DNA of 64,000 nt, taken from Arenicola marina (lineage: Eukaryota > Annelida > Polychaeta > Arenicolidae). Made by a program: the position numbers and the translations under genes. Under the pieces are notes generated by a model. It saw nothing but the letters and a program-made list of their open reading frames with translations. It had not been told where the DNA came from and did not search any database. Within the stretch, counting starts at the first letter, position 1; every line of letters starts with the position of its first letter. The DNA is taken from NCBI GenBank assembly GCA_964019135.1, contig OZ025258.1, positions 27,956,186 through 28,020,185 of the forward strand, written 5' to 3'. Of this stretch, positions 14,501 through 60,300 are shown piece after piece.

Positions 14501-17500
14501 GACCTATGAACACATTCAATACTGCATTCTAGAAGTTTAGAAACTCCGAAATGTCCGAAAATGTATCCTAAATGCATCGAAATATATCCATAGGCACAGG
14601 AAATAAATAACTAGCTGTTAGCAATTATTACTTTCGACACGATGTCTTTTTTTTATGCCCAATACATCTTATTGACGTGGTAAAGGGATGCTTGACAAAT
14701 ATTCATTATGTTAATGCGTACATGTATATCCAAATAGCATAAATAATACACACAAATGGGAGGATATTCCTACCAGTGCTTTCTTTCGTTCGTGAATGAT
14801 ATCATAGGCAACTTTGTGGACATAGTCACAATAGCCAAAGAACTTCCATCCATTTGGAGTTAGTCGGTATAGGATATCAAACCAAAGGTAGGGCTTACTG
14901 CAAATATACAAAAATGCCTTGGCTACTGCACACCACTTCGGCATAACAGAAGCACGAACAACAGGGTTTACACTCGACGGCGTATGCATGCGCGCCCAGC
15001 GCCTCAGCATAGCGAGATATGGCAGTAAACAGTTTAGCATTGAAATAAAACACGTTCCGAAATGAGCCTTTTAAAGCTTAATATTGAGGCCAGTTTGGGG
15101 ATTAAAGGTTTAACGGTTTGCAAGCCAAGCACCAGCAGTGCAGCCAGAGCCGTGGTTACAAATCTGCAAGACAACAATATAATACTTACAAATACCGATC
15201 TATCAGCAGGGAAGCCAGAGATGAGACCGCTTTTACGTAAGGGTTCGCATCCCTGTATGCAAAACAAGAGTCAAACTGAACTCACCAGATAAATTTCGTA
15301 CGTAGTACGCAACGATTTAGTCCAACGATACGATTTAGTCCAACGATTATATATATATGAATGAAAACTTTATAATTGCGATACAACTTTACTGCAGCTC
15401 TATTGGCGCCATATGTGCCTTGGGTGCTATGTTATTCAAGAAAGACACAACTATTTCCGAAACAGCTGCCACTTCAGGGAGCTAATTATAATTCACCCCT
15501 GAGATTGAACGTCTTCCTGAGATGAGAACGAACAGCGAAGGATGATGTTCAGAGTGCAGAGGCTGACTGGGTTGTAGATCTCCACGCTCATGTCTTCCGC
15601 CGCCAAGCGCTGAAGCTTCTCCTGCAACACGTTATACATCCATGAAACCAATCCCATCCAAGCTTAAAACGTATGGCAATCGTTGCGCTTCACAATGTAA
15701 CATATAGTACATAATAGTAGCCATATGAGATAAATGTTTCATTTTTTTAAGGGAAATAACACTGTGTTAAAATGTGTATGGAAGTGATAATTAATACAAC
15801 TACCCTATGTACTGCTACCCTATGTACTGTTACCATATGTACTGTTACCCTATGTACTGTTACCCTATGTAATGCTACCTATGTACTGTTACCCTGTGCA
15901 ATGTTACTCTGTACTGTTACCTTATATAATTCTACCCTATGTAGTGTTACCCTGTGTCATGCTACTCTATGTACTAATACCTTTTGTATTGTTACCATAT
16001 GTACTGTTACCCTGTTTAATGTTACTATATGTACTGCTACCCTATGTATTGCTACGCCTTGTACTGTTACCCTGTGCAATGTTACTCTATGTACTGTTAC
16101 CCTGTGTAATGCTACTCTATGTACTAATACCTTTTGTATTGTTACCATATGTACTGTTATCCTGTTTAATGTTACCCTATGTAATGCTACCCCTTGTACT
16201 GTTACCCTATGTACTGTTACCCCATGTAATGCTACTCTATGTATACTGTTACCCTGTGTAATGTTACTGTGTAATGTTACTCTATTTACTGTTACCTATG
16301 TAATTCTACCCTATGTACTGTTACCCGATGTAATGCTACTCTATCTACTGTTACCTATGTAATTTTACCCTATGTACTGATACCCTATGTAATGCTACCT
16401 ATGTACTAATACCTTTGATATTGTTACCATATGTACTGTTACCCTGTTTAATGTTACCCCTTGTACTGTTACCCTATGTACTGTTACCCTATGTACTGTT
16501 ACCCCATGTAATGCTACTCTATGTATACTGTTACCCTGTGTAATGTTACTGTGTAATGTTACTCTATTTACTGTTACCTATGTAATTCTACCCTATGTAC
16601 TGTTACCCGATGTAATGCTACTCTATCTACTGTTACCTATGTAATTTTACCCTATGTACTGATACCCTATGTCATGCTACCCTATGTACTGTTACCCTAT
16701 GTAATGCTACTCTATGTACTGTTACCTTATGTAATGCTACCTATGTACTGTTACCCTATGTAATACTACCTATATACTGTTACCCTATGTAATGCTACCC
16801 TATGTAATGCTACTCTATATACTGTTACCTTGTGTAATGTTACCCTATGTAATGTTATTCTATGTACTGTTACCCTATGTAATGCTACCTTATGTACTGT
16901 TACCCTATGTAATGCTACCTATATACTGTTACCCTGTGTAACCCTATGCAGTGTTAATTACCCTACACCCACCACTAGGATGTCAGCAGCTTCATTGTAG
17001 ACTTTGGTGTATGGCTTCAGCACCTCAAAGTGGAAGGCTGGAGTCAACAGACGGCGATTTCTGTACCAAGTCTTCCCGCCAGCTAGCAGTAAGCCTCGAC
17101 CTGGACACACACCACAATACAAAATACAATATACCAGTAGAAAATACAAAATACAATACAAAAGCAATGGATCTATATATATTTTACATCTCAAATCATA
17201 GCAAGTGTCAGTTCATCACAACATGCACAATAACGATGCATACGATCATATGCAACGATAATGGCCATACTGTAATATAAATCCAAGCTTATTTCTAATA
17301 CTCGATCACTCTATGGATAATTATTACAATGTCCATTAGGCCAACATGCTTGAATGGAGCCGCATTGACTCCACACTGTCACACCTAGCCATGGCAGCAG
17401 TGGTGTATATCCAGCCAAGCCAGATAACTGCTTCAATTCAGCTTCTTTGGTAAAGAACTTAAAGCTGTCGGGGTGGAAGGCCACCAAACAGGGCTGTATG

Positions 17501-29282: not shown

Positions 29283-32200
29283 TTATAAGCCTGTAGCTAC
29301 ATAATACAGCTACAAAATAAATAATAATAATGCTTTGTTTGCAGGAGTTCTGCCGCGAGTCAGTTTAAGACTCAGTTACTCGATGAAGTCAGCAGTCCCG
29401 AGGCAAGACTCAGCACCCAGAAGTCTCTGCCTCGCAGTGCGCAGCTGCTCTTGGCAGCCGCGAGTAAGACCCCTCGTTACAAGGCGCCCAGCGAGTGGAC
29501 TCCGGGGAGCCAGAAGCTCCAGTCTTCCCCGGTGTTACCGGACCGCATCAGTCCCATGAACTCACCCCACCCGCCGGGACCAGACCCCACTGAGGGGATA
29601 AAACCGCACTCTGTCAAAACCAATGATGGCTTTTCTCCCCCATCTCGTCTCTGCAAAGATCAAACATCGCCGTCGGCGAAGAGATCGGCCAGGAAGAAAC
29701 CTCGATTCAGTGTGAGTGGATTGCTCCTTTCTTAAATGATTGACCTCTACTGCCTTTGATAATACGTAAAGGGATTTATCAGATCTGACAGACTTCATAA
29801 TGCAAGGCTCTCCTGAGAAATATGATAAATTAAAATCTAGTATAAAATGCAAGTATACACGTGGTTCTTATTGAATAAATGCAAAATAAAATGTATAATT
29901 CTTATTGAATAAATGCAAAATGTATAATTCTTATTAATTAAATGCAAAATGTATGATTCTTATTGAATAAATGCAAAATGTATAACTCTTATTGAATAAA
30001 TGCAACATATATCATTGTTATGTAATTAATTCAACAGGTATGGTAAGCAATAACTTATATTATAACATATACTATATGTACATGATGGCCATCTCTTGGT
30101 TAGCCACTCAGTCATAGAACTGCCTGCTCTGCTCCTCCTAAAATTGTATGTCGGGTTGAATCGCCTGGACCCTGGATAGAGACATTTATCGCCTCTTCGA
30201 CTAATCTTCATCGCCCTAGCTCGTTTGACAGGTGTATGTGTTCTACATTGCAGTTTGGAATAATCCTCATCGCCCTAGCTCATTTGACAGGTGTATGTGT
30301 TCTACATTGCAGTTTGGAATAATCCTCATCGCCCTAGCTCGTTTGACAGGTGTATGTGTTCTACATTGCAGTTTGGAATAATCCTCATCGCTCTAACTCG
30401 TTTGACAGGTGTATGTGTTCTGCATTGCAGTTTGGAATAATCCTCATCGCCCTAGCTCGTTTGACAGGTGTATGTAATCTACATTGCAGTTTGGAATAAT
30501 CCTCATCGCCCTAACTCATTTGACAGGTGTATGTGTTCTACATTGCAGTTTGGAATAATCCTCCTCGCCCTAGCTCAGTTGACAGGTGTATGTGTTCTAC
30601 ATTGCAGTTTGGAATAATCCTCCTCGCTCTAGCTCATTTGACAGGTGTATGTGTTCTACATTGCAGTTTGGAATAATCCTCATCGCTCTAACTCGTTTGA
30701 CAGGTGTATGTGTTCTGCATTGCAGTTTGGAATAATCCTCATCGCCCTAGCTCGTTTGACAGGTGTATGTAATCTACATTGCAGTTTGGAATAATCCTCA
30801 TCGCCCTAACTCATTTGACAGGTGTATGTGTTCTACATTGCAGTTTGGAATAATCCTCCTCGCTCTAGCTCATTTGACAGGTGTATGTGTTCTACATTGC
30901 AGTTTGGAATAATCCTCCTCGCTCTAGCTCATTTGACAGGTGTATGTGTTCTACATTGCAGTTTGGAATAATCCTCCTCGCCCTAGCTCATTTGACGGTA
31001 TGTGTTATACATTGCAGTTTGAAGAAGAAGTCGCTGCCTTCCTGCGTAACATCGATGTCACGAAGCTGGATATGGAGACCTTCACCTTCGCGGGTAAGAC
31101 AGTTTCAACCTCAAATGTAAAACTTGCCTGGCATCAATTTATATTATGGGTGATCTGTTCTATGGTGTAGTGCAATATATAGTTTTATATTGCTTTTCCG
31201 CCTTAATGAAGTTTTTTTTTGCTAATTTTAGTGTCTTGATTTATGTATTTGAGAAATAGCGTTGGCGCTATTTATTGCCTGTTTGAACCCACTCCTCCGT
31301 GTTTTTTTTCAGATCTTCGGCATCGCTTCGAGAAGATAAAGTTCAGAAAGTTATCTAAAGAAGAGAGGAAGGTGTTCTTCCGCATGGCTCAGGAGCGCGT
31401 TGCACAGGCGTTCGACAACGACACTAACTCCGCGGGCCGCAATGGCCACGTGGCTGGCAAGGTCACGCACACTCAAGGTCACATACCTGGTAACAACACA
31501 TACAGTCAAGATCAAGATCACGTGGATAAGAAGGTTATACCGAAGCAAGGTGCCGGCGGTGATAAGGTCACGCATGGACTAGGTAAAGCGGTGAGCCAGA
31601 GCCCCGTTGTGGTCGCTACACCGCTGAACGGTCAGACACAATCCCAGAAACCAGCCACCCCGCCCAGTGCCTTGCACGAGAACCCGGGGCCAGCGGAAAA
31701 ACAGACTGCCAAGGAACAGACAAGTAAAGACAAGGAGGCAGACAATATCTTAAAGGAAAGAACTTTGAAGAAGTTGGAAGAAGTCTTGCAAAAGAAAAAG
31801 AAAAAGAAGAAACGTGGAACCTCAATAGGAGGGAGTCAAAATGATACCAGTGACTCAATATCTGAAAGCGTCTTCTCAGAGGCCGAGAATGTGCTCAACG
31901 GAAGCATAGCCCTCAGGAATGAAAGCCAAAGGAGGAGTATAGTGGAGAAAACTGATCTAGCATTAGGAAAGAAAAAAAAGTCCATTAATACAAAGTCCTC
32001 TTCTCAGAAGACGAGCCCCATGCCAGGCGCTGATGCAAAGGGAAATGACAGTAACGTGACACTGAATCTGTCGGGGACTCCAGGTCGGGTTCATAGACAT
32101 AAAGCCAGTAAAGGCGAAGCAGTGACAGGACATACGCAGGAAATATTGAGGAAGGTGGAAGTCAGAAATACAATGGAGGCCAACCACTCAATCCAAGGCA

Positions 32201-35578: not shown

Positions 35579-36214
35579 TCAACGCCAGCCGTCGAAATGC
35601 TCTTTGACGGCCCCGGTGGCGCAGTCTCTCGCCGTTTGGCCCTTGGCGTTACGAGCCTGCAGGTCGGCGCCGCGCTCCGCCAGGTGGCGCACACTGGCAA
35701 TGTTGCCATGAGCCGCGGCCACGTGTAGCGGCGTATTGCCCCCCGCGTCCTGCAGTGAAATGTCGTCTGGTTTACCGGCCTCCTCCAGTAAGTAGCGCAG
35801 GACGTCCACGTTGCCAGACATTCGGCTGTTAATGGAGAGCGCCGCGATGTGGACCGGGTACCTGCCTCGCCAGTCCTGTGCGCTCACATCGGCGCCGTGC
35901 GGAACCAACAAACGCGCGGCCACCACATTGTTTTGGCGGGCAGCCCGGTGAAGGGTGGTCTCCCCGTCCCGACTGGAGGAGTTGGGGTCCGCCCCGTGCT
36001 GCAGCATCAACTCCACCATGGCCATCTTATTGGCCGCCAGGGCCGTGTGTAGCGGGATGTGGACACTCCGGTTACAGGAGAAGAGACAATCCGATGTGTA
36101 ATCTTCATTGATGAGGTCCGCAGCGCCCTCACCGGCCTCTTCCAAAATCATCCGCACACCTCTGACGTCATTGTTGCCAACCGCCTGACGTAATGGTGAC
36201 GTAGCGTTGCCCAT
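35579..36214 (-). CDS. N-myristoylated ankyrin-repeat protein A
   Basis: Single-exon frame of 211 aa. The N-terminus MGNATS has Gly2 and Ser6, a good N-myristoylation signal, so membrane attachment is likely. Ankyrin repeats: a degenerate first repeat (about 6-35), then HIPLHTALAANKMAMVELML (about 52-71), DGETTLHRAARQNNVVAARL (about 83-102), YPVHIAALSINS (about 118-129) and NTPLHVAAAHGNIASVRHLA (about 159-178). Between repeats 1 and 2 is the shared segment NEDYTSDC, also found in the other three ankyrin genes of this window (x-DY-x2-DC). No partner domain is visible; the role is probably a protein-binding scaffold. Closest relative here is protein B at 48084. The start is set by the conserved MGN and by the lack of upstream similarity. 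Function unknown. Confidence 0.85.
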   Translation of the reverse strand: MGNATSPLRQAVGNNDVRGVRMILEEAGEGAADLINEDYTSDCLFSCNRSVHIPLHTALAANKMAMVELMLQHGADPNSSSRDGETTLHRAARQNNVVAARLLVPHGADVSAQDWRGRYPVHIAALSINSRMSGNVDVLRYLLEEAGKPDDISLQDAGGNTPLHVAAAHGNIASVRHLAERGADLQARNAKGQTARDCATGAVKEHFDGWR

Positions 36215-36989
36215 GGTGACGTGTCAGTTTATACTCAACTAGGATGATCGTTAAAGATCGGTCATTCAAATAGTTGTCACCCTTTTAGCTGAAATGGAAG
36301 ACAAAAATACCCGTAAAAATCATGGAATTTAAACGTTATTGAATGAAGGACATATAGTCTATATATCAACCAATGCGGGAACATTTATCAGGTGAGTCGT
36401 TTCGTTGGGAACGTTCTGATGCATAAGCCTAAAATGGCTGTCAAAAAGTCTCTATATATAGACTGTATAATGTTATAAAATACGCCATCAACAGCTTTAA
36501 CACCAATGGCGGGTAAGTGTGATTTATAATGATATGCCACCACACCTTGTGCAGGTCTAGATGCAGACCGAATCCTATACATAATTCACATATTACGGCA
36601 CACTAGAGAAAATGAAAAACACATTCTCTTCTATTTAAATATTGGTTATTCCAAGACGTCCTATATTATACGACTCATTGTTATGGACGACCATGTTTTG
36701 TTTGCCACTGTTTGCAAGAACGTTCAAGTTTGATCACCTGTCGATCTCGCCCGAGAACCTTAAAATTTATTGTCACGGCTATTGACTGTGTCAATTATAT
36801 TGCCTGGCGCTTCGTAAACTCACGGTATTGAGACACAGTTGCCACGTACATTACACGAACGTATCGCAAGATAGGCTTAGCATTAGAATTTTACATAATG
36901 CTCGTCACATTACATTGGTTACTTACTAAGTTAGTGTGTTGTTGGCATCCGTCCGTCTGCGAAAGACGATGGATTTGCAGCTTTGTTTG

Positions 36990-43269: not shown

Positions 43270-46200
43270 TTACATCTTTTCTCCGAACGTCCAAACATAA
43301 CCCTGGGTCAGTCCGTTATTTTCCAGACGGGCATGTTCCGGTAATTCGTATTGCGCGAGTAAAGATAACTGCTTCGTCAACGGATTTTTTAGAAAATAAA
43401 TCCTTCCTGGGTCGCCAATCAGAACGCGTTTCCCTTTTTGATGCAATTGCTTCATCCACTGGAATACTCTATTGGTAAACGACTCGTCGTAAAACATGTC
43501 GCCAAGAAAGACAACGTCCCATTGGTCATCTAACTGACCAATCAAATCGCTTGTTTCCGTTTCAATGTTTACTTTGTTGAGACCGGCATTTAAACGAGCC
43601 GCCACCGCCGCAACTGGAAAAACAAGTGTTTATTACAATGATTGTGTTTTTAATAGTAGGCCTATATGGTTATTGAAACCCTTATTAACGGCTCAGATGA
43701 CCACGTTTGATAAACTGATGCCGGATCGGATGTCATAAGATCTCCGAAGAAGGGTGGAGCAAAAATCTTACGACAGGGGGCGTTAGGGGATGGACAGGTT
43801 TCGGACCCCTGAATTCGCCAAAGATATACCAGCAATGCCCGATAACTAACATAAACTGCATGGCTACATGCTTCTGCACGTATATGTGGTTATGTAAAAG
43901 TAGATGCGATCTCGGTGTGAATATTCTAAGATATTTATAGAGGTGCTTAAATGTTGTAAACTGGAGCGGCTGGAACTAACCACACACCCTGGTTCTACGA
44001 ACCTTTACATATATCGTTGGCTACAGCTCGCTGAGCTCCCTTTATCGATGCTGCTACAGCACTCGCTCCACACCCTGAACCAACATCCAACACCACCTTG
44101 CCAGAGACCGTACTCGGATTGTCCAAGACATACCTACAACATATTTATCAGGGTTTAAAACAGCAATTTTGTATTTAAGAGTGCATGGAGCCCGGGTTGG
44201 GGGGGGGGGATTAATAGAATGCTGGCTTTGGGACGGTTCGGCAGTGAAGCCCCCCCCCCACACCAGCATTTCCATTGACCCACTCTAATGTGACCGCTCC
44301 ATGCAGACCCGCTTCGTTATTTATCCAGCAAACCCGTCCGCTCTATAAACGCAAATGTTTGCTCCCCCGCCCCACCGGTCGCAATTTTTTTAATATCTTT
44401 TTCATCATAAATGTCCGCCCTCTCAGACATCACCTGATCACGGGCACCCCCACCCTGGTGTCTACCTGGTGAGGGCCTGTCTGCCTGGGGAGGGTCTGTC
44501 TACCCGGTCAGGGCCTGTCTACCCGGTCAGGGCCTGTCTACCCGGTCAGGGCCTGTCTGCCTGGTGAGGGCCTGTCTACCCGGTGAGGGCCTGTCTACCC
44601 GGTGAGGACCTGTTTGCCTGTTGAGGGCCTGTCTGCCTGGTGAGGGCATGTCTGCCTGGTGAGGGCCTGTCTACCCGGTCAGGGCCTGTCTGCCTGGTGA
44701 GGGCCTGTCTACCCGGTCAGGGCCTGTCTGCCTGTTGAGGGCCTGTCTACCCGGTCAGGGCCCGTCTACCCGGTCAGGGCCTGTCTACCCGGTCAGGGCC
44801 TGTCTACCCGGTCAGGGCCTGTCTACCCGGTCAGGGCCTGTCTACCCGGTCAGGGCCTGTCTACCCGGTCAGGGCCTGTCTGCCTGTTGAGGGCCTGTCT
44901 ACCCGGTCAGGGCCTGTCTACCCGGTCAGGGCCTGTCTACCCGGTCAGGGCCTGTCTGCCTGTTGAGGGCCTGTCTACCCGGTCAGGGCCTACCCACCTG
45001 GTCAGGGCCTGTCTGCCTGTTGAGGGCCTGTCTACCCGGTCAGGGCCTGTCTACCCGGTCATGGCCTGTCTACCCGGTCAGGGCCTGTCTACCCGATCAG
45101 AGCCTGTCTACCCGGTCAGGGCCTGTCTGCCTGGTGAGGGCCTGCCTACCCGGTCAGGGCCTGTCTGCCTGTTGAGGGCCTGTCTACCCGGTCAGGGCCT
45201 GTCTACCCGGTCAGGGCCTGTCTACCCGGTCAGGGCCTGTCTGCCTGTTGAGGGCCTGTCTACCCGGTCAGGGCCTGTCTACCCGGTCAGGGCCTGTCTG
45301 CCTGTTGATGGCCTGTCTACCCGGTCAGGGCCTGTCTACCCGGTCAGGGCCTGTCTGCCTGGTGAGGGCCTGTCTACCCGGTCAGGGCCTGTCTGCCTGT
45401 TGAGGGCCTGTCTACCCGGTCAAGGCCTGTCTACCCGGTCAGGGCCTGTCTACCCGGTCAAGGCCTGTCTACCCGGTCAGGGCCTGTTTACCCGGTCAGG
45501 GCCTGGCTACCCGGTCAGGGCCTGTCTACCCGGTCAGGGCCTGTCTACCCGGTCATGGCCTGTCTACCCGGTCAGGGCCTGTCTACCCGGTCAGGGCCTG
45601 TCTGCCTGGTCAGGGCCTGTCTACCCGGTCAGGGCCTGTCTACCCGGTCAGGGCCTGTCTACCCGGTCAGGGCCTGTCTACCCGGTCAGGGCCTGTCTAC
45701 CCGGTCAGGGCCTGTCTACCCGGTCATGGCCTGTCTACCCGGTCAGGGCCTGTCTACCCGGTCAGGGCCTGTCTGCCCGGTCAGGGCCTGTCTACCCGGT
45801 CAGGGCCTGTCTACCTGTTGAGGGCCTGTCTACCCGGTCAGGGCCTGTCTGCCTGGTGAGGGCCTGTCTACCCGGTCAGGGCCTGTCTACGCGGTCAGGG
45901 CCTGTCTACCCGGTCAGGGCCTGTCTGCCTGGTCAGGGCCTGTCTACCCGGTCAGGGCCTGTCTACCCGGTCAGGGCCTGTCTACCCGGTCAGGGCCTGT
46001 CTACCCGGTCAGGGCCTGTCTACCCGGTCAGGGCCTGTCTACCCGGTCAGGGCCTGTCTACCCGGTCATGGCCTGTCTACCCGGTCAGGGCCTGTCTACC
46101 CGGTCAGGGCCTGTCTACCCGGTCAGGGCCTGTCTGCCTGGTGAGGGCCTGTCTACCCGGTCAGGGCCTGTCTACCCGGTCAGGGCCTGTCTACCCGGTC

Positions 46201-47179
46201 AGGGCCTGTCTACCCGGTCAGGGCCTGTCTGCCTGGTCAGGGCCTGTCTACCCGGTCAGGGCCTGTCTACCCGGCCAGGGCCTGTCTACCCGGTCAGGGC
46301 CTGTCTACCCGGTCAGGGCCTGTCTACCCGGCCAGGGCCTGTCTACCCGGTCAGGGCCTGTCTACCTGGTCAGGGCCTGTCTACCCGGTCAGGGCCTGTC
46401 TACCCGGTCAGGGCCTGTCTACCCGGTCAGGGCCTGTCTACCCGGTCAGGGCCTGTCTACCCGGTCAGGGCCTGTCTGCCTGGTGAGGGCCTGTCTACCC
46501 GGTCAGGGCCTGTCTGCCTGGTGAGGGCCTGTCTACCCGGTCAGGGCCTGTCTACCCGGTCATGGCCTGTCTACCCGGTCAGGGCCTGTCTACCCGGTCA
46601 GGGCCTGTCTACCCGGTCAGGGCCTACCCACCTGGTCAGCGCTTGGCCACCTGGCCAGTAGAAGGCCCAGAACGGATCCTCCACCAAACAATCCTCCTCT
46701 CGGGCGTGCCACAGGGAGCAGCTAGGGGTCAGCAGGTGCAACGGAATCTCGGGCGTAAGGTGCCTAATCGTCACTTCCGTTTCGCTCACGATGTATTGAG
46801 CAATATCCTCGTCGGAACTCAACGGCGATGTCCCGTTATTGTGAAAGTAGGACCGAGACCGCCTGAGCGCGCGTAACGGCCAAAGCCAGGCAGCGCGTGT
46901 GTTACCGCTAGTCGCTATGCGAGCGAGCTCTGTGTTCTTGCGGTAGACAGAAAACGACCGATCGAAGTTCAACTTAAAATGGTGTTTCACGATGCTCGGT
47001 TTCAGAATACGTGCTTCACGTACTAGCTTGCCCACCACGAGCGAAGCCCGTCCACATTTAGATGCGACTTGACTTGCAAATATCATTATAGTGGAGGCAT
47101 GGAAGAAGTCGATCAGTGCAGATCGGTAGAGGCTAAAGCAAGCTACTAGCACTTGACCGCTGAAAAGCAGCTCGAGCAC
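43270..47179 (-). CDS. ETFBKMT: ETFB lysine methyltransferase (METTL20)
   Basis: Mitochondrial seven-beta-strand methyltransferase that trimethylates lysines of the electron-transfer flavoprotein beta subunit. Three coding exons: 46632 to up to 47179, 44009-44133 and 43270-43613. Exon 1 ends LTPEIPLHLLTPSC...DPFWAFYWPGGQALTR. Exon 2 gives YVLDNPSTVSGK and the SAM-binding motif I VLDVGSGCGASAVAA with the acidic ANDI post-I. Exon 3 has WDVVFLGDMFYDE (the DxxY motif of this methyltransferase group) and VLIGDPGR. All align with human ETFBKMT. Phases join exactly (AG+G; T+TT). From 47179 the protein is 338 aa. An internal Met at 47086 would give 307 aa and a basic, acid-poor leader typical of a mitochondrial signal; human has 262, so that start is more likely. 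The stop TAA overlaps AATAAA, a possible very early poly(A) signal. Intron 1 is nearly all minisatellite. Confidence 0.92.
44450..46639 (-). repeat. 19-bp minisatellite continuous with a splice donor
   Basis: About 115 tandem units; in gene sense CTGACCGGGTAGACAGGCC, with variants containing CAACAGGCAGACA and CACCAGGCAGACA. The unit nearest exon 1 is CTGACCAGGTGGGTAGGCC (46621-46639), and its AG/GTGGGT is the exon 1 donor of ETFBKMT. An exact copy of that 19-mer lies at 44987-45005, 1634 bp = 86 units away. The plus strand is open in all frames for long stretches (19-residue peptide ACLPGQGLSTRSGPVYPVR); these frames are not genes. Confidence 0.95.
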
Positions 47180-48086: not shown

Positions 48087-48728
48087 CGGATTCAGATTCA
48101 GTAGATACTCCTTCGTGTCCCCTTTAGCGACATCTACCGGCGTCTTGCCCTGGCTGTTGGTGACCTTGACCTCTGCGCCGTGCTCCAGGAAATACCTCAC
48201 CGCCGCCAGGTTGTCCTGCTTGGCCGCCAGGTGGAGCGCGGTGTTTCCATCGGCGTCCGCCAGGTGCACGTCGGAAGCCTTCCCGACATCCTCCAGGATG
48301 TATTTCAAGATGTCCACGTTCTTCGCGGCCCTGACGTAGATGGACGCCGCGGCGCTGTGCAGCGCGTGACGTCCGTTGTTATCCGTAGCGCTCACGTCGC
48401 CGCCATGCTTGACGACTGCGCGCGCCGCCCGGATGTTGTTAATCCTGGCGGCGTGGTGCAGCGCCGTCTCGCCGTCCGGCATCGCCGCAGTGTTGGGATC
48501 CCCGCCGTTCTGGAGCAATATATCCAAGATGGCGTGCTTCCCGCCGGCTACAGCGGTGTGTACGGGTGAGTAGACGTTCCGGTTGCATGAATCCAGAAGG
48601 CAGTCGGCGGAGTAGTCCTCGTTGATGAGATCAGGGGCGCCTTCTCCCGCATCCGCCACGATCTGCCGGACTTTGTCCGTGTCGTTGTGTCGCATGGCGA
48701 ACCGCAGCGGGGACGACGTGTTGCCCAT
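48084..48728 (-). CDS. N-myristoylated ankyrin-repeat protein B
   Basis: Single-exon frame, 214 aa, N-terminus MGNTSS (Gly2, Ser6: myristoylation signal). Aligns with protein A along its whole length: AGEGAPDLINEDYSADC, then ankyrin repeats YSPVHTAVAGGKHAILDILL (about 53-72), DGETALHHAARINNIRAARA (about 85-104), RHALHSAAASIY (about 119-130) and NTALHLAAKQDNLAAVRYFL (about 161-180). The conserved DY-x2-DC segment sits between repeats 1 and 2. Like A it has no catalytic or membrane-spanning domain. It is closer to A than to C and D (shared LINEDY and DGET), implying a duplication before other genes came between them. Function unknown; a membrane-tethered scaffold is plausible. Confidence 0.85.
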   Translation of the reverse strand: MGNTSSPLRFAMRHNDTDKVRQIVADAGEGAPDLINEDYSADCLLDSCNRNVYSPVHTAVAGGKHAILDILLQNGGDPNTAAMPDGETALHHAARINNIRAARAVVKHGGDVSATDNNGRHALHSAAASIYVRAAKNVDILKYILEDVGKASDVHLADADGNTALHLAAKQDNLAAVRYFLEHGAEVKVTNSQGKTPVDVAKGDTKEYLLNLNP

Positions 48729-50124
48729 GGCAACGTGCTCAGTGCGTGGGGTGGGGTGGGCAGGCTGGCTGGGTGGAGGGGCGTCTTACACTACTGCCCG
48801 TTGTGCACTGACATGGGACTCAACCAGGCACTGAGACGGGAACCTCCTGGGACATAGAAAAAATATATCTGTGTCAAACAATCGCCATTTGTCGGGATCG
48901 AATCTGGATCTATTGAAGTAGGGACCTACGTCAGCTCGAATTATCCAGAGGGAGGAGTGTCTCGAGAGATTGGGAAACCCGGGTCATTCCTGCCTGGTCG
49001 ACGTGATATGACGATATAATATTAGGTAAAGTCCTTGTTAAACCAGCCAACAAAATATGCCATATATATATATATACTACTTCAAACAATTTCGTCAGTA
49101 TTTGGTAAAAATACAGCGTTCCCCAGTGTTGGGTTTGTGTCACCGCTGTTATATCGTCAGGGTCACTCTGCCTTAGACTGACTCCGCAAGCGGAGCTCGT
49201 GTAGCGCCACCGTGCGGGGAGCTTGCGTCAAGGTGCCAACAGTCGTTATGAGGGTCAAAGTGGAGGGTTGCGTTATGATTCAACAGGGACCCTGGGGGGG
49301 TTGGGGGTGGGGGGAGAGGGGGCATACCAACCACTCATGTGCAACGCACACACGCACATACAGACACACAGCCCAGCCACTCTTTGGCCCAGCCACACAG
49401 GCCGCACAACGACCTACTTTGATCGGGTGGCGAGTCGAAAGGCCAGAGGCGAGAGAGAGAATACAACACAGGTGGCGAGGCTGAGGCGCCGAGACACCAC
49501 ATTGCTATTTGGCATGCAGCTCTCGGTGCTTCTGATTATCGCACCGTCACCCGATCATAGGCCGACAGGGATAAATTATACGAGATCTCATAGGAGCCCT
49601 TTGGCCGAGATCTGCAAATAGGCAGCTGTAACGCGTGAAATACATGTTACCAGAAGCCGAGTGGGTGGGCCGCAGGCGCAGAGGAGACACCGGATGTGGA
49701 CGCTGGTGACTGGCAGAAGCAGACGACACCAAACACTGCACCAGTTTTCTTCTCGACGACGTGTCCAAGGGCGTCTGTATGACGTATCAAGCCGCGCATT
49801 TACGTGGTAGGTAGATAGGTTCGCCGTGTTGGGTGAAATTATTCCATTTTATCTCAATGCACTTATCTATTTATATGAGCAATGTATTGATCGCCAGAAG
49901 CCCTACCGATGGTATTATGCTAGTCTCTATATATATATCCGTAACTTTTCTGGTGTTTCTCGAATAACATCTAGGCATGAACGTGTGCCAGGATTGGTCA
50001 GGATGCGAGGGCGTCAGATATCACACTACAAGACCCTGGGTGGGTACATGTATGGCAGACCCAAGCCAAATTCAACGAACGCGAGCTCCATAGCAACTAG
50101 AGCGGATCGATAATTCACTGTAGA

Positions 50125-52604: not shown

Positions 52605-52770
52605 CACTTGTCGCCGACGTCACCTGTCACCTGTCCCCGACGTCAACTGTCGTCAACCATCTGTCACCGACGTCACCAATCACCTGTCACCGACGTCATC
52701 TGTCACCGACGTCACCGACGTCACCTTTCATCAACGTCACCGACGTCACCATCGACTGACGTCACCTCCC
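52605..52770 (+). promoter_or_regulatory. Tandem ACGTCA motifs upstream of ankyrin gene C
   Basis: Eight GACGTCA half-palindromes, usually in the setting TGTCACCGACGTCACC, lie in about 165 bp ending 75 bp before the ATG. This could be a CREB/ATF-type control region or simply a short minisatellite. A TATA-like CATATATAC is at about 52808-52816, close to the start codon. Confidence 0.5.
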
Positions 52771-52843
52771 AAAGACTGCACGAACGTCTGCCGTCATCAC
52801 CCAGCGACATATATACACACACAACGACACCAAGCGAACAGCC

Positions 52844-53533
52844 ATGGGAAACGCACCCAGTAACCTTCACAACGCCATCTGGCGGAACGACGTGGCGGAG
52901 GTGCGGCGCATCCTGGAGAAGGCGGGCGACAAGGCCGGCCGCATGGTGGACGAGGACTACTCCCAGGACTGCCTCTTCCGGTCCTGCTTCCGCAACGACT
53001 ACAACGCCATGTACGACGCCGTGATGAAGAACCGGAAAGAGATCGTCCAGATCATGATCGCCAACGGCGCCAGCGTCCACGCGTCGGGCAAGTACGGCGA
53101 GACGTGCCTGCACCGCTCGGCCAGGAATAACCACGTGGACCTCGCCAAGATACTCGTCGAGGCCGGCTGTGACGTCAAATCTACGGACGACCAGGGTCAT
53201 TACGTCACGCACGCGTGCGGCATGACGATCTTCGACACGACGCCCACGCTGCGGTGGTTTCTGCTGGAGGCGGCCAGCAAGGAGGACGTGGACCTGAGGG
53301 ACTTCACGGGCCGCACGGCCCTCCACGAGGCCGCCCACTGGGGCAACTACGAGGTCTGCAGGACCCTCCTCGAGATGGGCGCCGACGTGAACGCTGCCAG
53401 TAATGAGGGCAACGTGCCGCTGCACGGGCGTGGCGCCACCGACCGACCCAACATCTGGAAACTCCTCGTCGACAATGGCGCTGACGTCACAATTACAAAT
53501 AAGAAGGGGATCAAACCTAAACAACGAAACTAA
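52844..53533 (+). CDS. N-myristoylated ankyrin-repeat protein C
   Basis: Single-exon frame, 229 aa, N-terminus MGNAPS (myristoylation signal). GC-rich coding with strong third-position C/G, unlike the AT-rich flanks. Segment VDEDYSQDC (about 36-44) then ankyrin repeats: YNAMYDAVMKNRKEIVQIMI (about 53-72), YGETCLHRSARNNHVDLAKI (about 84-103), a longer linker repeat with TPTLRWFLLEAASKEDVD, RTALHEAAHWGNYEVCRTLL (about 164-183) and PLHGRGATDRPNIWKLL (about 197-213). It shares SGKYGET and AGCDV...TDDQG with protein D, so C and D form a pair on the plus strand. Function unknown. Confidence 0.87.
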   Translation: MGNAPSNLHNAIWRNDVAEVRRILEKAGDKAGRMVDEDYSQDCLFRSCFRNDYNAMYDAVMKNRKEIVQIMIANGASVHASGKYGETCLHRSARNNHVDLAKILVEAGCDVKSTDDQGHYVTHACGMTIFDTTPTLRWFLLEAASKEDVDLRDFTGRTALHEAAHWGNYEVCRTLLEMGADVNAASNEGNVPLHGRGATDRPNIWKLLVDNGADVTITNKKGIKPKQRN

Positions 53534-55010: not shown

Positions 55011-56211
55011 CCAACCATGCATAAGTCAATGTCCGAGTCAAAGAGATTATGTTATTGGCGTGTGTGATTGCCACACGCAGGATGGGGAGATGGTTAGCCC
55101 AGAACTCTAGGCTGTCTGTGGGTGGAGACAGCCTATTGTAGTATTCTATGGTCAAATTGAGATTTGGAAGGTCATTTCATGGGGATTTGGCTTTGGCGAA
55201 ATGTAACTCATTCGCCTGTTGCTGTGGAAACAGTTTATAGTAAAAAAGATTTTATAATAAAGAATCCATAATTTCTGACAAGTAACGGCTAATCATAAAA
55301 TATTTCCCAAGAAATTGATATAAAAACAGATGCTTTCATTGACCCAGTCCCCTGATCTTTAAACAGAAAGCTGTCAGTAAGCCAATCAGCATGACGAAAG
55401 TTATGACATTGCACTTGTGGTCGCGCATTAGAGTCAATTTTCGTGATATTGGCCATACATGGCTTCTAATGCCAGGCAAATACTTGCAAGAGATTACTTG
55501 GTCTAGCAGTGCGACGCGCAACATCTCAGCCGTCACTACGATACATGCGGAGTTTGGAGGATCGTGTCGAATGCAAAGAGCAAATCTCGTACGAACCGAT
55601 CCAACGTTAATCCAGTACATAATATTCGACTTCGTGAACAATAACATACAAAATAGCACTCTCCGCCTTCGACTCCGCTAGGGGGCTGCGTGATATGGCG
55701 GTCTAGTGCGGATGAACGGAGCCCCACCTAGCGGAATGGAGCTTGTGAAGATAGGCCTGACGTTTGGTTTAAGCTTGACAGGCTAAACGTTTTAGGCGAT
55801 GAATTGGTCGTCCTAATTATATATGCATGCTTTGAACGATTTGAGTGAACTTGAATCTTTTCTGTTTTCAGATAATCTACCCCGGTGAAGGCGGTGAATG
55901 TGTCCGATACAGCCACTTTGTCAAGAGAAGCAGACAACTAATTTGCCGATGCTGAAGTTTAGAACGACCCTAAGTCGACTCAGGACAAGTGTGATCTGCT
56001 CAAGGGGATTGTTAGGCCTTCTCGCTGCAATGACTGAGACAACGTGGTTACGTGCGTGTGACGTCACATGTTATTAAGCTGTATCATCCTTACTAGCATA
56101 TCTCCGCCAAGAAACAACCGTCAAATGATGTTGGGAACATTATGAAACTGGGCTTAAAAGGATGAGTATTTCGTTCATCAATTGACTAGCGCTTAACGTT
56201 ACCCACAGACA
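55011..56211. other. Spacer before ankyrin gene D
   Basis: No gene supported. An inverted pair CTCCGCCTTCGACTCCGCTA / TAGCGGAATGGAG lies near 55661-55742, perhaps a small palindromic insertion. The 5' UTR of gene D probably lies in its right end. Confidence 0.45.
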
Positions 56212-56922
56212 ATGGGCAACTGTCCCAGCGCGCTACGAGCCGCCATCTTGGATAGAAACATACAAGAGGTGGAGCGGCTGCTCAGCAAGGGGGACATCAG
56301 CCCTGCCGAGCTGATGAACAACGACTACGCCCAGGATTGTATCATGGAAGCCTGGAAGAAGGCCCCGGGGAACGCCTTTTACTACGCCGTGAGCCACAAC
56401 ACGGTGGAGATTGCCAAGGTCATGATTGACAGAGGCGCGGACTTGCATTCCAGCGGTAAGTACGGGGAGACCGTCCTGCACTGCGCCGTCCGCAACGGAT
56501 ACTTCACCATGGCCAGAGTGCTGGTGGACGCCGGATGTGACGTCACGGCTACCGACGACCAGGGCCGGTGCGTCATTCACGCATGCGCAATGGCGTTTTG
56601 CGATACATCGGCTATCTTACGCTGGCTTATGACGGATGTGTTCAAGAGCCTCGAAGACGTGAATGCGCGAGACTTTCACGCGAGAACGCCACTGCACGAG
56701 GCCGCGCAGAAGGGGAATCTCGAGGTGTGCCAGGCCTTGGTGGAGTTGGGGGCGGACGTGAAGGCGACGAGCCGGAGTGGGAACACCCCGCTACACGAGG
56801 CCGGAGCCCGAGTCCGACCGTCCATCTGGAATCTGCTCGTGACACACGGAGCGAATGTCAACGCGGAGAACGCGTACGGCGAGAGACCCAGGCAGGCCAA
56901 CAGAGGGCGCCCCTCGCCTTGA
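56212..56922 (+). CDS. N-myristoylated ankyrin-repeat protein D
   Basis: Single-exon frame, 236 aa, N-terminus MGNCPS: myristoylation signal plus Cys4, which could be palmitoylated. Contains NNDYAQDC (about 37-44), then ankyrin repeats NAFYYAVSHNTVEIAKVMI (about 55-73), GETVLHCAVRNGYFTMARVL (about 86-105), a longer repeat with SAILRWLMTDVFKSLEDVN, RTPLHEAAQKGNLEVCQALV (about 165-184) and TPLHEAGARVRPSIWNLLVT (about 197-216). Paired with protein C by sequence. The last 13 codons (ERPRQANRGRPSP, stop) are the first unit of a 50-bp minisatellite that continues for eight more units past the stop, so the C-terminus may change in length between alleles. Confidence 0.87.
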   Translation: MGNCPSALRAAILDRNIQEVERLLSKGDISPAELMNNDYAQDCIMEAWKKAPGNAFYYAVSHNTVEIAKVMIDRGADLHSSGKYGETVLHCAVRNGYFTMARVLVDAGCDVTATDDQGRCVIHACAMAFCDTSAILRWLMTDVFKSLEDVNARDFHARTPLHEAAQKGNLEVCQALVELGADVKATSRSGNTPLHEAGARVRPSIWNLLVTHGANVNAENAYGERPRQANRGRPSP

Positions 56923-57318
56923 CGAGCGGCGAGAGATCCAGGCAGGCCAACAGAGGGCGCCCCTCGCCTTGACGAGCGGCGAGAGACCCAGGCAGGCCAA
57001 CAGAGGGCGCCCCTCGCCTTGACGAGCGGCGAGAGACCCAGGCAGGCCAACAGAGGGCGCCCCTCGCCTTGACGAGCGGCGAGAGACCCAGGCAGGCCAA
57101 CAGAGGGCGCCCCTCGCCTTGACGAGCGGCGAGAGATCCAGGCAGGCCAACAGAGGGCGCCCCTCGCCTTGACGAGCGGCGAGAGACCCAGGCAGGCCAA
57201 CAGAGGGCGCCCCTCGCCTTGACGAGCGGCGAGAGATCCAGGCAGGCCAACAGAGGGCGCCCCTCGCCTTGACGAGCGGCGGGAGATCCAGGCAGGCGAG
57301 GAGAGGGCGCCCCTCGCC
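56876..57318 (+). repeat. 50-bp minisatellite spanning a stop codon
   Basis: Nine units of AGGCAGGCCAACAGAGGGCG / CCCCTCGCCTTGACGAGCGG / CGAGAGACCC, nearly identical except for CC/TC and a divergent ninth unit. The first unit encodes the C-terminus and TGA stop of ankyrin protein D. The minus strand is open through the array (ARGALCWPAW... peptides), which is an artefact. Each unit holds CCAACAGAGGGCGC, 13 of 14 matches to the CTCF core CCASYAGRKGGCRS. Confidence 0.93.
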
Positions 57319-60300
57319 TTGACGAACCATCTAACGGCGACTCAGATGGGTGGAGACTTAAAACGGGTGATTCGCTGGTCCTCTGGTTCCTCGCCATTGC
57401 CGTGAGATGATACGGTCAATAGTTTAAGCGTTGTTCCCAAAGCAACCAACCCACAAACCTCATCTATCGTCAGACATTCCTGTCTGGTGTAACCACAATA
57501 TTCGCACAATGTTTGAGATATATCGCCCGATTTGTGGTAATGTCACCATTGAAATGCCAAAGAATCCTGTAATACGTTCACTGATCGGGTGTTAGCTAGC
57601 AGGCCGGTGAACTCATGGCTTTATAACCCCGGCTCTGTCAGCAAGAGAGTCGAACGAGAGAGAACGAAACCTTGCATAAAGAGTCGCGTTAATTAACTCT
57701 CATGACCTCATTATTCCTATCCCGGCGATGCCGTGGCTTCGCATGATGGTAATGAATGAGGTCGATAATATGTGATTTCTAGTTGCCGGTTGAGAATGCC
57801 GCGTTAAATCATAACGCGACACAATCAACACTTAAAGCTGTTCATGCAGCGATTGTTCACCAAAAAGAACACCTGCGTGTGCCTATTTTATGACTCTCAG
57901 CAGGTGATATTGGAATCTGAATGTTAGCTGATTAAGAAGAGCCTGCATTGTCCGATTTTTTTGGCATTGTAAAGGACAATTAGAGATGCATAAACGAAGG
58001 TAGCTTAAAGTGAACAAAGTGAAAAGGTATTTTAATGTTATGAGCTAGTTATTCTTATATTACCAAGCAGTTTCCATACATGTATATATATTGGGGGTAT
58101 GCATTATACATGTGTTTTATAATAACGAAGACGGCCGAGTTGCATTTGATGAAATCATTTGTGTTCTGTAGGAGTAGTAGCCTCATCGAAGCATACCACA
58201 CAGACCATAATTATAGAGACCATCAATATATATGAACTGTTTATAAGGTGCTACAATGAGAAATGGCTCAAGAAATCCGAAATATTTAATTAGTTGTTCA
58301 TATTCACGGTCGGTCTTATTTAAAGGAATGTCAGATTCCGCTCAAATGACAAACTGCAGCGATGTCCAAATGTTGATGAACGCCACATTTTGCCAAACGA
58401 AATAGCTATCATTCGAAAGTCGCGAATGAAATTAACATTGTTTTTGGCAGTCTCGATATGTGATTACAAAGTCGCTACATTCAGAGCAATTCCCAAACTG
58501 TATAGTTCGGCCAGGCTCGTGTCTGCACTTTCGTGGAAAATTTATTATTCATCTGCGTTATTACCGTTGGTTTCTCGTGGGTGATATCAAGGTTAGGAGG
58601 TATTCGCGATTGCAAACCTGTGGAAATAATTGATGTTTTAACGACAAAACCCAACAACGAAATGCACCAGTCTGACAAAAATGTATTAATTGACTGCATA
58701 CTACATATATATGTGCATTTATATAATCAGAACATATAACATATCATTTTCAATTAAAACATTTATTTCAACATAAGGAGACATCAAAAGAGGATGTTTA
58801 ACCGTTAATGTTCATGATGACGTTCTCAGAGGAATGAATCTGTATTCGATGGGCTTTATTTGTTTTTTTTGTTTTAAACTTTATTTATTTTGTGAGGTTT
58901 TCAACAGCGATTGCACATGTGAATGATCACCTCGAACATTACTGTTGCCACCTTGTTGCCTTAACTCAGTGTATATCTATCGCATCATGCCTGTTGGACA
59001 AATAAATCCTAAGCTAGTGAATTGTGAACAGGAGCATGCCGTTTTGCCGTGAATCAATTTTATTGCTCAGTACTCTTTATCAGAATGTGTTAATTGGTAC
59101 TACACATCAATTTGATACGTTACGTTTACAGGAAAAGGTAGCGTTGTTCAAAATGCCTACTCCAGCAAAACAGCACGATCGCGTATCATGGTCGTACTAT
59201 AACGGATTGTTTGTATTTTGCCATTTTTACCCAATATGGTTAGCTTTTCGGCATATAATAATACAACGGCAAAAACCGTTCGTGATCCGTTGTGGTCAAC
59301 CTCTAATAACTTAACGTGGAGCAAGGGTGTTCACGAATGATCCGTTGACCATGTCAGAACTGTGTCCGTCACCATATGATAACCTGTCCGGCGGTGATAA
59401 TCTATCCAGCCACGCTTCTTTCATGCCAGTATAACTAACCAGAACCCTATATTAACCCTAACCCTGGCCCTAACCCAGGCCCTAACCCAGGCCCTAGCCT
59501 AACCCTAAACCTAACATACATGCCCTCTTTACATCACATGCCCATTTGCTGCGCATGCGCACTCGTCAGCCTGACACTTATGACGCCGGAAGGTTATCAG
59601 CCTACACCGGCCCCACGTTTCACCGAATGCAAAGTGCGGCCCGTAACTACAGATACGGTCAACTAAAGATGGCGGAAGAAGGTCTGACAGGGGAGGTCCA
59701 GTTTTCAGTGTCGATTTTTTTAAATTCTCATTGTCGAATGTCGATTTTTCACGACGTTTCGTGTGACTTTTTGGCTAAATTCAGGGTCGTTTTGTATAAA
59801 ATCTGTGTCGATGTCGCTTTTTCAGATCCTCGGTCTCGGAATTTGGGGGTCAATGTCGAATGTCGATGTTTCAAAGAGCTCTGTGTCGCGCGTGCCGCCA
59901 TTGACCCTTATCCAGACCCCTATGTTTGTTGAGCTCTCGTGGTTTACATCCCGCTTTTAACATTCTTTACGCCATGCCGCCCGTCAGATAAGTGTACGTT
60001 TTACATTCCCGCTCCCTTAATCCCCCCCCGCCCCCAAGCCCCGGCTCGACCCGTTACGACCTTTTGAGTACCGCCTCACTGCAATACATTTGGGCAGTTG
60101 CACACATTTAGTTGTACCATTTCCCTACATTAGTTCAGGCCTACATTAAATTACACGACGCGTCACGGCCAAATGAAAAGGAGAGAAATGTAAGGCTTGT
60201 TACACCCAGAAGCTTTTCAGTAGGAGTCGTTCACTTGTGACGGCCTCGGGCACCCTGGGTGTAAAAAAAAGGACATTAAGGAAGAAACGTGGAGAATGTC

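Follow-up and report, generated by a model that had tools for sequence, protein, structure and literature searches.

How does a minisatellite come to begin precisely on a splice site? The question is raised by a 64,000-nucleotide stretch of DNA from the annelid Arenicola marina (contig OZ025258.1, positions 27,956,186 to 28,020,185; the window hereafter), in which the first intron of a methyltransferase-like gene, which we take to be ETFBKMT, is occupied largely by a 19-bp tandem repeat whose first unit contains the splice donor of exon 1. We propose that a segment at the exon-intron boundary was duplicated in tandem and grew into a 2.2-kb minisatellite with the first donor still in use, and we consider this origin very probable. 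The anatomy of the array, the homology of its units with the boundary segment and a like arrangement at the splice sites of other genes can be observed directly. The ETFBKMT-like locus was analysed in one assembly, by comparison of sequences and proteins.

Exon 1 is an open frame reading ...DPFWAFYWPGGQALT(R), and its 3' end runs ...TGG CCA GGT GGC CAA GCG CTG ACC AG before intron 1 starts with GTGGGTAGGCC at 46631. The final 8 nucleotides (nt) of the exon, CTGACCAG, double as the opening 8 nt of the repeat unit. Exon 2 begins at 44133 as AG/G TAT GTC TTG GAC AAT (R-Y-V-L-D-N), and joining the two exons keeps the frame, giving ...LT(R)YVLDN. The two exons queried each match a single place in the 867-Mb genome. 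When the exons were searched against Pfam, exon 2 matched PrmA (1.7e-4, 21.6 bits, slightly under the cut-off of 22) and the last exon matched Methyltransf_31 (0.008, 16.3 bits, below the cut-off), while exon 1 by itself gave no match; the joined peptide of exons 1 and 2 has a weak PDB match, 3bzb, which extends across the junction (E 4.8e-5).

The preliminary description of this locus had made the donor-containing 19-mer at 46639-46621 the first of about 115 units filling 87% of intron 1, and the coordinates, the unit table and Tandem Repeats Finder (TRF) all agree with this. TRF calls an array of period 19 at 44459-46625 with 114.1 copies; counting in register from the donor unit gives 115, of which the final one is degenerate, and the array makes up 2173 of the 2498 bases of intron 1. 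The donor unit, with 8 exonic and 11 intronic nt, spans the exon-intron boundary. Of the units, 67 read exactly CTGACCGGGTAGACAGGCC; this sequence and the donor unit agree at 15 of 19 positions, as had been claimed for the ordinary units. In all, 25 unit types occur in the array in a patterned arrangement. The 19/19 copy that had been reported at 45005-44987, 86 units away, was re-derived; it is the only one of the 114 other units to share the donor unit's G/T in columns 11 and 14, and AGGT in register is kept in 4 of the 114. The likeness goes beyond chance: of the 123,488 19-mers outside the array, the two strands of the window taken together, only 1 reaches 14/19 to the consensus and none reaches 15/19. 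The mean number of differences per unit from the consensus, taken in blocks of 15, starts at 0.4-0.7 in blocks one to four, rises to 1.2-1.5 in blocks five to seven and reaches 2.4 in the last 9 units. Unit divergence thus rises toward the 3' end, away from the donor (rho 0.29, P 0.002), a gradient that fits growth at the donor end and ageing at the far end.

Features of the window discussed in the text (positions in the window; a slash marks a splice junction)
Feature	Positions	Strand	Remarks
ETFBKMT-like methyltransferase, coding exon 1	46632..47086	minus	open frame, proposed ATG at 47086
Exonic 19-mer CTGGCCAGGTGGCCAAGCG (codons of WPGGQA)	46640..46658	minus	14/19 to donor unit; possible seed of first slippage, not significant
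Donor-containing first unit CTGACCAG/GTGGGTAGGCC, i.e. CTGACCAGGTGGGTAGGCC	46621..46639	minus	donor CAG/GTGGGT, intron from 46631
Predicted intron 1	44134..46631	minus	2498 nt; donor CAG/GTGGGT, acceptor TTGTAG/GTATGTC, frame kept
19-bp minisatellite, 115 in-register units, consensus CTGACCGGGTAGACAGGCC	44455..46639	minus	TRF score 3564
Unit identical to donor unit (perfect decoy donor)	44987..45005	minus	19/19, 86 units downstream: (46639-45005)/19
Rest of ETFBKMT-like gene, introns included	43270..44133	minus	exon 2 from 44133 (YVLDNPSTVSGKVVLDVGSGCGAS...), later exon, stop at 43270
Apparent acceptor-spanning array, 59-bp unit, 13.9 copies	30202..31021	plus	ends on acceptor TTATACATTGCAG/TTTGAAGAAG...; by eye
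Putative exon (FEEEVAAFLRNIDVTKLDMETFTFAG) after acceptor array	31018..31093	plus	open frame and splice signals; donor GTAAGA at 31094; coordinates counted by hand
15-bp array, much of P450 intron	15801..16940	minus	starts about 30 nt past donor at 16972; no exon bases recognised in unit

The preliminary description had also pointed to many donor-like GGGTAG sites as well as to one identical decoy whose use would shift the frame. The GGGTAG sites are there, but they are poor donors: 82 of them read CGGGTAGAC and score 2.4 bits each, against 10.0 bits for both the true donor and the 45005 copy (on a human-type donor matrix). By this score the supposed decoys in the array are mostly weak and one is perfect. 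Splicing from the 45005 copy would add 1634 nt, which leaves a remainder of 2 on division by 3, so use of this decoy would shift the frame as the earlier account had it. Directly after the acceptor, the start of exon 2 on the minus strand (TAG/GTATGT at 44133) also resembles a donor (8.2 bits).

The arrangement is not confined to this gene. When the whole genome was searched for donor words standing three in a row, the first matches listed fell in four arrays on contig 1, parts of which were fetched. All 3 of the visible 5' edges start at the ends of coding exons, and the fourth array filled the fetched stretch. As these three arrays were found through their donors, they show that such arrays exist and do not bear on frequency. 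In an AASS-like gene a 41-bp unit made of the last 33 exonic nt and GTGAGTCC is repeated 138 times, and the first 5.7 kb of the intron hold 116 exact copies of AAGGTGAGT. The 39-bp unit of an ALDH1L-like gene contains 19 exonic nt. The third array has a 34-bp unit with few exonic bases. Pfam supports the exons at these three edges, though for the third gene the match, to a cysteine-rich domain of Lustrin type, lies under the cut-off. Further along the ALDH1L-like gene, three exons of which were confirmed by Pfam, a 28-bp unit repeats another exon end, and arrays follow within about 20 nt of two more exons (donors assigned by eye), with none after the exon KREPIG. An ALDH9-like gene has one exon end repeated as a 48-bp unit and a 67-bp unit that encodes the end of another exon, the first copy of which lies beyond the fetched DNA. 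An acceptor has been copied too, in a 41-bp unit at an aldehyde dehydrogenase locus (L057) where the array is interrupted. The array flanks at two further loci (L066, L067) were not recognisable as coding by eye and were left out of the counts.

In order for such arrays to be harmless the first donor would have to remain the one that is used, and the proteins indicate that it is. The exons flanking the array align gaplessly to human-type AASS in the AASS-like gene and to 10-formyltetrahydrofolate dehydrogenase in the ALDH1L-like gene. In the ALDH9-like gene one continuous aldehyde dehydrogenase profile match crosses the intron (139 residues over 136 positions), and for a P450 gene in the window, presumably CYP4-like, the joined flanking peptides cover profile positions 84-158 (75 residues over 75, E 8.9e-13). 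Protein continuity across these four comparable array-bearing introns indicates that the first donor is used in each, and it supports undisturbed splicing from the first donor at the ETFBKMT-like gene. The AASS-like intron, in which a single strong 5' splice site recurs in 116 exact copies, is a natural experiment on the choice of a donor among equals, since donor strength is constant there and position alone differs. The 39-bp array of the ALDH1L-like gene (L045 5765 to L046 1308) has a unit length that is a multiple of three, and the host frame is free of stops over the 1310 bases checked. A later donor, if used, could insert a repeated 13-residue block into the protein.

For the way in which the duplication arose, the choice of the first donor in RNA and the sequence of events, we infer the following course. 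A 19-nt segment astride exon 1 and intron 1, donor included, would have been duplicated by replication slippage or unequal exchange, the duplicate would have expanded into the 2.2-kb minisatellite, and the splicing machinery would have stayed with the exon-proximal donor. Growth could be tolerated because the exon-proximal donor is the one used, so that further copies would fall within the intron and could drift. The first unit would be held in place by selection for the codons and the splice signal that it contains, the remaining units may have been homogenised to the weak-donor version CGGGTAGAC, and the exact copy at 45005 could be either a relic or the product of a later conversion. Units derived from an exon would also give a minisatellite a direction of growth and a relative age. 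The locus can be read in other ways. An ordinary minisatellite might have been born inside the intron and merely abut the donor, its 15/19 match being due partly to chance. Tandem arrays take up 12% of the window, and in five 10-kb stretches at fixed positions their share is 2-53%; several arrays in other genes begin 4-32 nt past a donor without exon sequence, and the units of 34 unselected arrays have no average donor enrichment (3.2 bits versus 3.4 for the reversed units). Weighing further against an origin from the boundary are the small number of exonic nt in the ETFBKMT unit (just 8) and its column 7, which usually differs, so that, on its own, this locus would also fit an array lying inside the intron next to the donor; exon bases, moreover, were found in the units at 0 of 12 sampled donors (see below). 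However, the 15/19 match stands in perfect register at the edge of the array and is reached by no other 19-mer in the window, the donor unit has its 19/19 copy within the array, and units in other genes are clearly derived from exons; we regard a purely intronic birth as unlikely.

The reverse order of events, in which an already existing array supplied the splice site from one of its units and the exon end was captured from the array, might seem to be favoured by the exonic 19-mer CTGGCCAGGTGGCCAAGCG just upstream of the donor, which also matches the unit at 14/19. This likeness has a P of 0.07 under synonymous recoding and is explicable by codon constraint, making it poor evidence for any earlier unit. 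The exonic half of the unit lies in WPGGQAL, which is weakly aligned to a distant methyltransferase-like protein in the PDB, and the exon is thus the likelier source; we give capture from the array very little credence. It is hardly more probable, in our view, that the array is functional, as a platform of decoys that bind U1 or as an intronic enhancer tuning the splicing of ETFBKMT. A perfect donor copy does persist at 45005 and 116 exact AAGGTGAGT copies are kept in the AASS intron, but the ETFBKMT array has 82 weak sites (2.4 bits), as expected from drift, and its perfect decoy would shift the frame if it were used. Tandem arrays are a weak point of assemblies, and a repeat could have been collapsed or expanded artificially. 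This array, however, lies inside a 43-Mb contig between unique flanks and is patterned with 25 unit types, and its relation to the donor does not depend on copy number; an artefact seems to us the least probable explanation of all.

The array has counterparts in amphioxus, as the preliminary description had suggested for Adh genes. Minisatellites lying across an exon-intron boundary were named mirages in amphioxus Adh3, and the cited passages describe regular splicing together with length instability; the genes mentioned there are Adh3, the globins BflGb6 and BflGb9, PGBD5 and troponin C (PMC3087553, PMC3902484). The ETFBKMT array shares the structural features of a mirage: its unit spans the boundary and, by sequence, the true splice site belongs to the outermost unit, with all further units inside the intron. 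Its 19-bp unit also falls within the 10-72 bp given for the units of Adh3 (PMC3087553, PMC3902484), although its 115 units contrast with the 6 and 3 given for two haplotypes of BflGb6. To judge from its sequence, then, the array is of the known mirage kind, in another phylum. The earlier suggestion of another and unusually clear case holds in its first part, for this is another mirage-type array and now one in an annelid; it is not the clearest one in this genome, as the units of the AASS-like, ALDH1L-like and ALDH9-like genes hold longer pieces of exon.

Mirages have been described from cephalochordates, whereas the host of the ETFBKMT array is an annelid in which several genes are affected among the few examined. 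The mitochondrial contig of the assembly (15,942 bases) carries a cox1 match with 13 in-frame TGA codons, as expected if TGA encodes tryptophan. Its genes lie on one strand and run cox1-cox2-atp8-cox3-nad6-cob-atp6-nad5-nad4L-nad4-rrnS-rrnL-nad1-nad3-nad2; a gap separates trnR from trnH. The proteins were read from open frames and the tRNAs were taken from ARAGORN, with atp8 and the two rRNA genes placed in gaps between tRNAs; ARAGORN also placed an additional Ile and an additional Val tRNA on the opposite strand, and both were taken as false. In the annelid pattern, according to the passages cited, nad6 and cob follow cox3, atp6 stands between cob and nad5, nad5 and nad4L/nad4 are interchanged and nad3 lies between nad1 and nad2, and leeches have all their genes on one strand and, like other clitellates, a control region between trnR and trnH (PMC2639372, PMC4866719). 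The gene order matches this pattern, which identifies the host as an annelid and not an amphioxus. A search for the GFP family, meant to recognise an amphioxus, gave no match either in this genome or in the controls and so did not discriminate.

Among annelids, earthworm metallothionein genes have minisatellites in intron 1 with monomers of 25-216 bp (PMC12783039). They resemble our case in occupying an annelid first intron with monomers of minisatellite length, and differ in the size of the monomers and in that the cited passages do not describe them as spanning a splice site. The abalone TSSK1 gene is reported with an intronic minisatellite, which the passages concerned do not place on a splice site. 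A search of the titles and abstract openings listed, with subscription journals mostly outside its reach, found no report of splice-site-spanning minisatellites outside amphioxus, annelids included. A related process is intron gain by tandem genomic duplication of AGGT, in which a new intron is made from exon sequence (PMC3443670). As in our model, a segment at an exon containing AG/GT is duplicated in tandem. In that process the start of the resulting intron would repeat the start of the downstream exon. The start of intron 1 of the ETFBKMT-like gene (GTGGGTAGGCC) agrees with the start of exon 2 (GTATGTCTTGG) at only 4 of 11 bases, compared by eye, suggesting that an existing intron was lengthened and that none was newly gained. 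With mirages reported so far, in the literature seen, from a handful of amphioxus genes, their occurrence at several genes of an annelid suggests a recurrent route of intron growth and possibly of intron origin.

The frequency of such arrays was estimated from a sample blind to arrays, namely 13 loci of the Pfam aldehyde dehydrogenase family, of which one (L059) had no assigned donor, leaving 12 donors that were assigned by eye, some of them weak (L054/L055, L057, L062). An array was counted if it had at least 4 copies and started within -60 to +40 nt of the donor, an interval set after the examples had been seen. Arrays accompany 4 of the 12 donors (L051, L052, L056, L063), or 3 of 9 when recent paralogue pairs are counted once, and all four start 4-20 nt past the donor. 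In the like test acceptors gave 2/12 (1/9), with L058 left out and the interrupted array of L057 missed; by eye, L057 is the one acceptor in the sample whose units hold exon bases. The base rate for donors is 1.9% of positions in 126 kb not chosen for arrays (window included) and 3.1% of positions away from the exon in ten of the sampled loci, and the excess over it has a P between 6e-5 and 2e-3. Splice-site arrays are thus frequent in the A. marina genome; donors need not stand out from what the overall abundance of minisatellites would give. When the units of the 34 unselected arrays were scored with the donor matrix they were no better than their reversals on average (Wilcoxon P 0.59), which speaks against donors being special, and 8 of them against 4 of the reversed units reached at least 7 bits, where 2.7 are expected from shuffled units. 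Genome-wide, triplets of AGGTRAGT gave 12,072 matches. The reversed word gave 5,424, and two anagrams, each also reversed, gave 4,446, 3,434, 7,685 and 6,262, so that the donor word exceeds the five controls 1.6-3.5 fold; these are matches and not arrays, and long arrays dominate them, making the counts a hint only. A comparison of arrays per Mb by word on contig 1 (P 0.009, by eye among the matches listed) was discarded as words with long arrays are favoured in it.

It is possible, and in our estimation a little short of an even chance, that splice sites, chiefly donors, are preferred seeds of minisatellites throughout the genome in this annelid lineage, with a sizeable share of exon ends copied into arrays or seeding them and with a hundred or more identical donors in an intron of which the first alone is used. 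If so, in-frame arrays such as that of ALDH1L could give proteins of variable length through later donors.

At one sampled locus (L052, 700-1100) an aldehyde dehydrogenase-like exon end (HHAGWAQIMDREMSEFQSVG and its donor) occurs twice, about 165 bp apart, and a 25-bp array then begins from the second donor. The doubled exon end, which gave no match when searched alone against Pfam, is possibly an early-stage mirage. The loci L051/L060/L054 and L052/L061/L055 form two closely similar aldehyde dehydrogenase genes about 27 kb apart (C1, about 51.20 and 51.23 Mb). Copy numbers differ between these paralogues, at 12.4 versus 24.4 in a 15-bp array and at least 55 versus 14.9 in a 25-bp array, and the pair is suited to studying array growth.

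Elsewhere in the window, the 59-bp unit of the apparent acceptor-spanning array carries TTCTACATTGCAG/TTTGGAA and also a donor-like CAGGTGTAT, so that each unit resembles a tiny exon with both signals; the putative exon that follows had no match in Pfam. Four similar open frames with MGN... starts lie at 35582-36223 and 48087-48785 on the minus strand and at 52760-53530 and 56197-56919 on the plus strand. The two that were tested (48087 and 56197) match ankyrin repeats, and a 50-bp array (56877-57325) lies at the 3' end of the frame that starts at 56197. Outside the window, at about 367.8-384.6 kb of C4, myosin head exons recur, with five matches in profile positions 89-154 about 1 kb apart and four around 590-640, in what looks from the sequence like clusters of mutually exclusive exons. 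Among 77 myosin matches, many are short exons within long open frames, whose lengths range from several hundred to 1760 residues; one frame of 1401 holds matches 4 kb apart. This suggests that these long frames run through intronic arrays free of stops.

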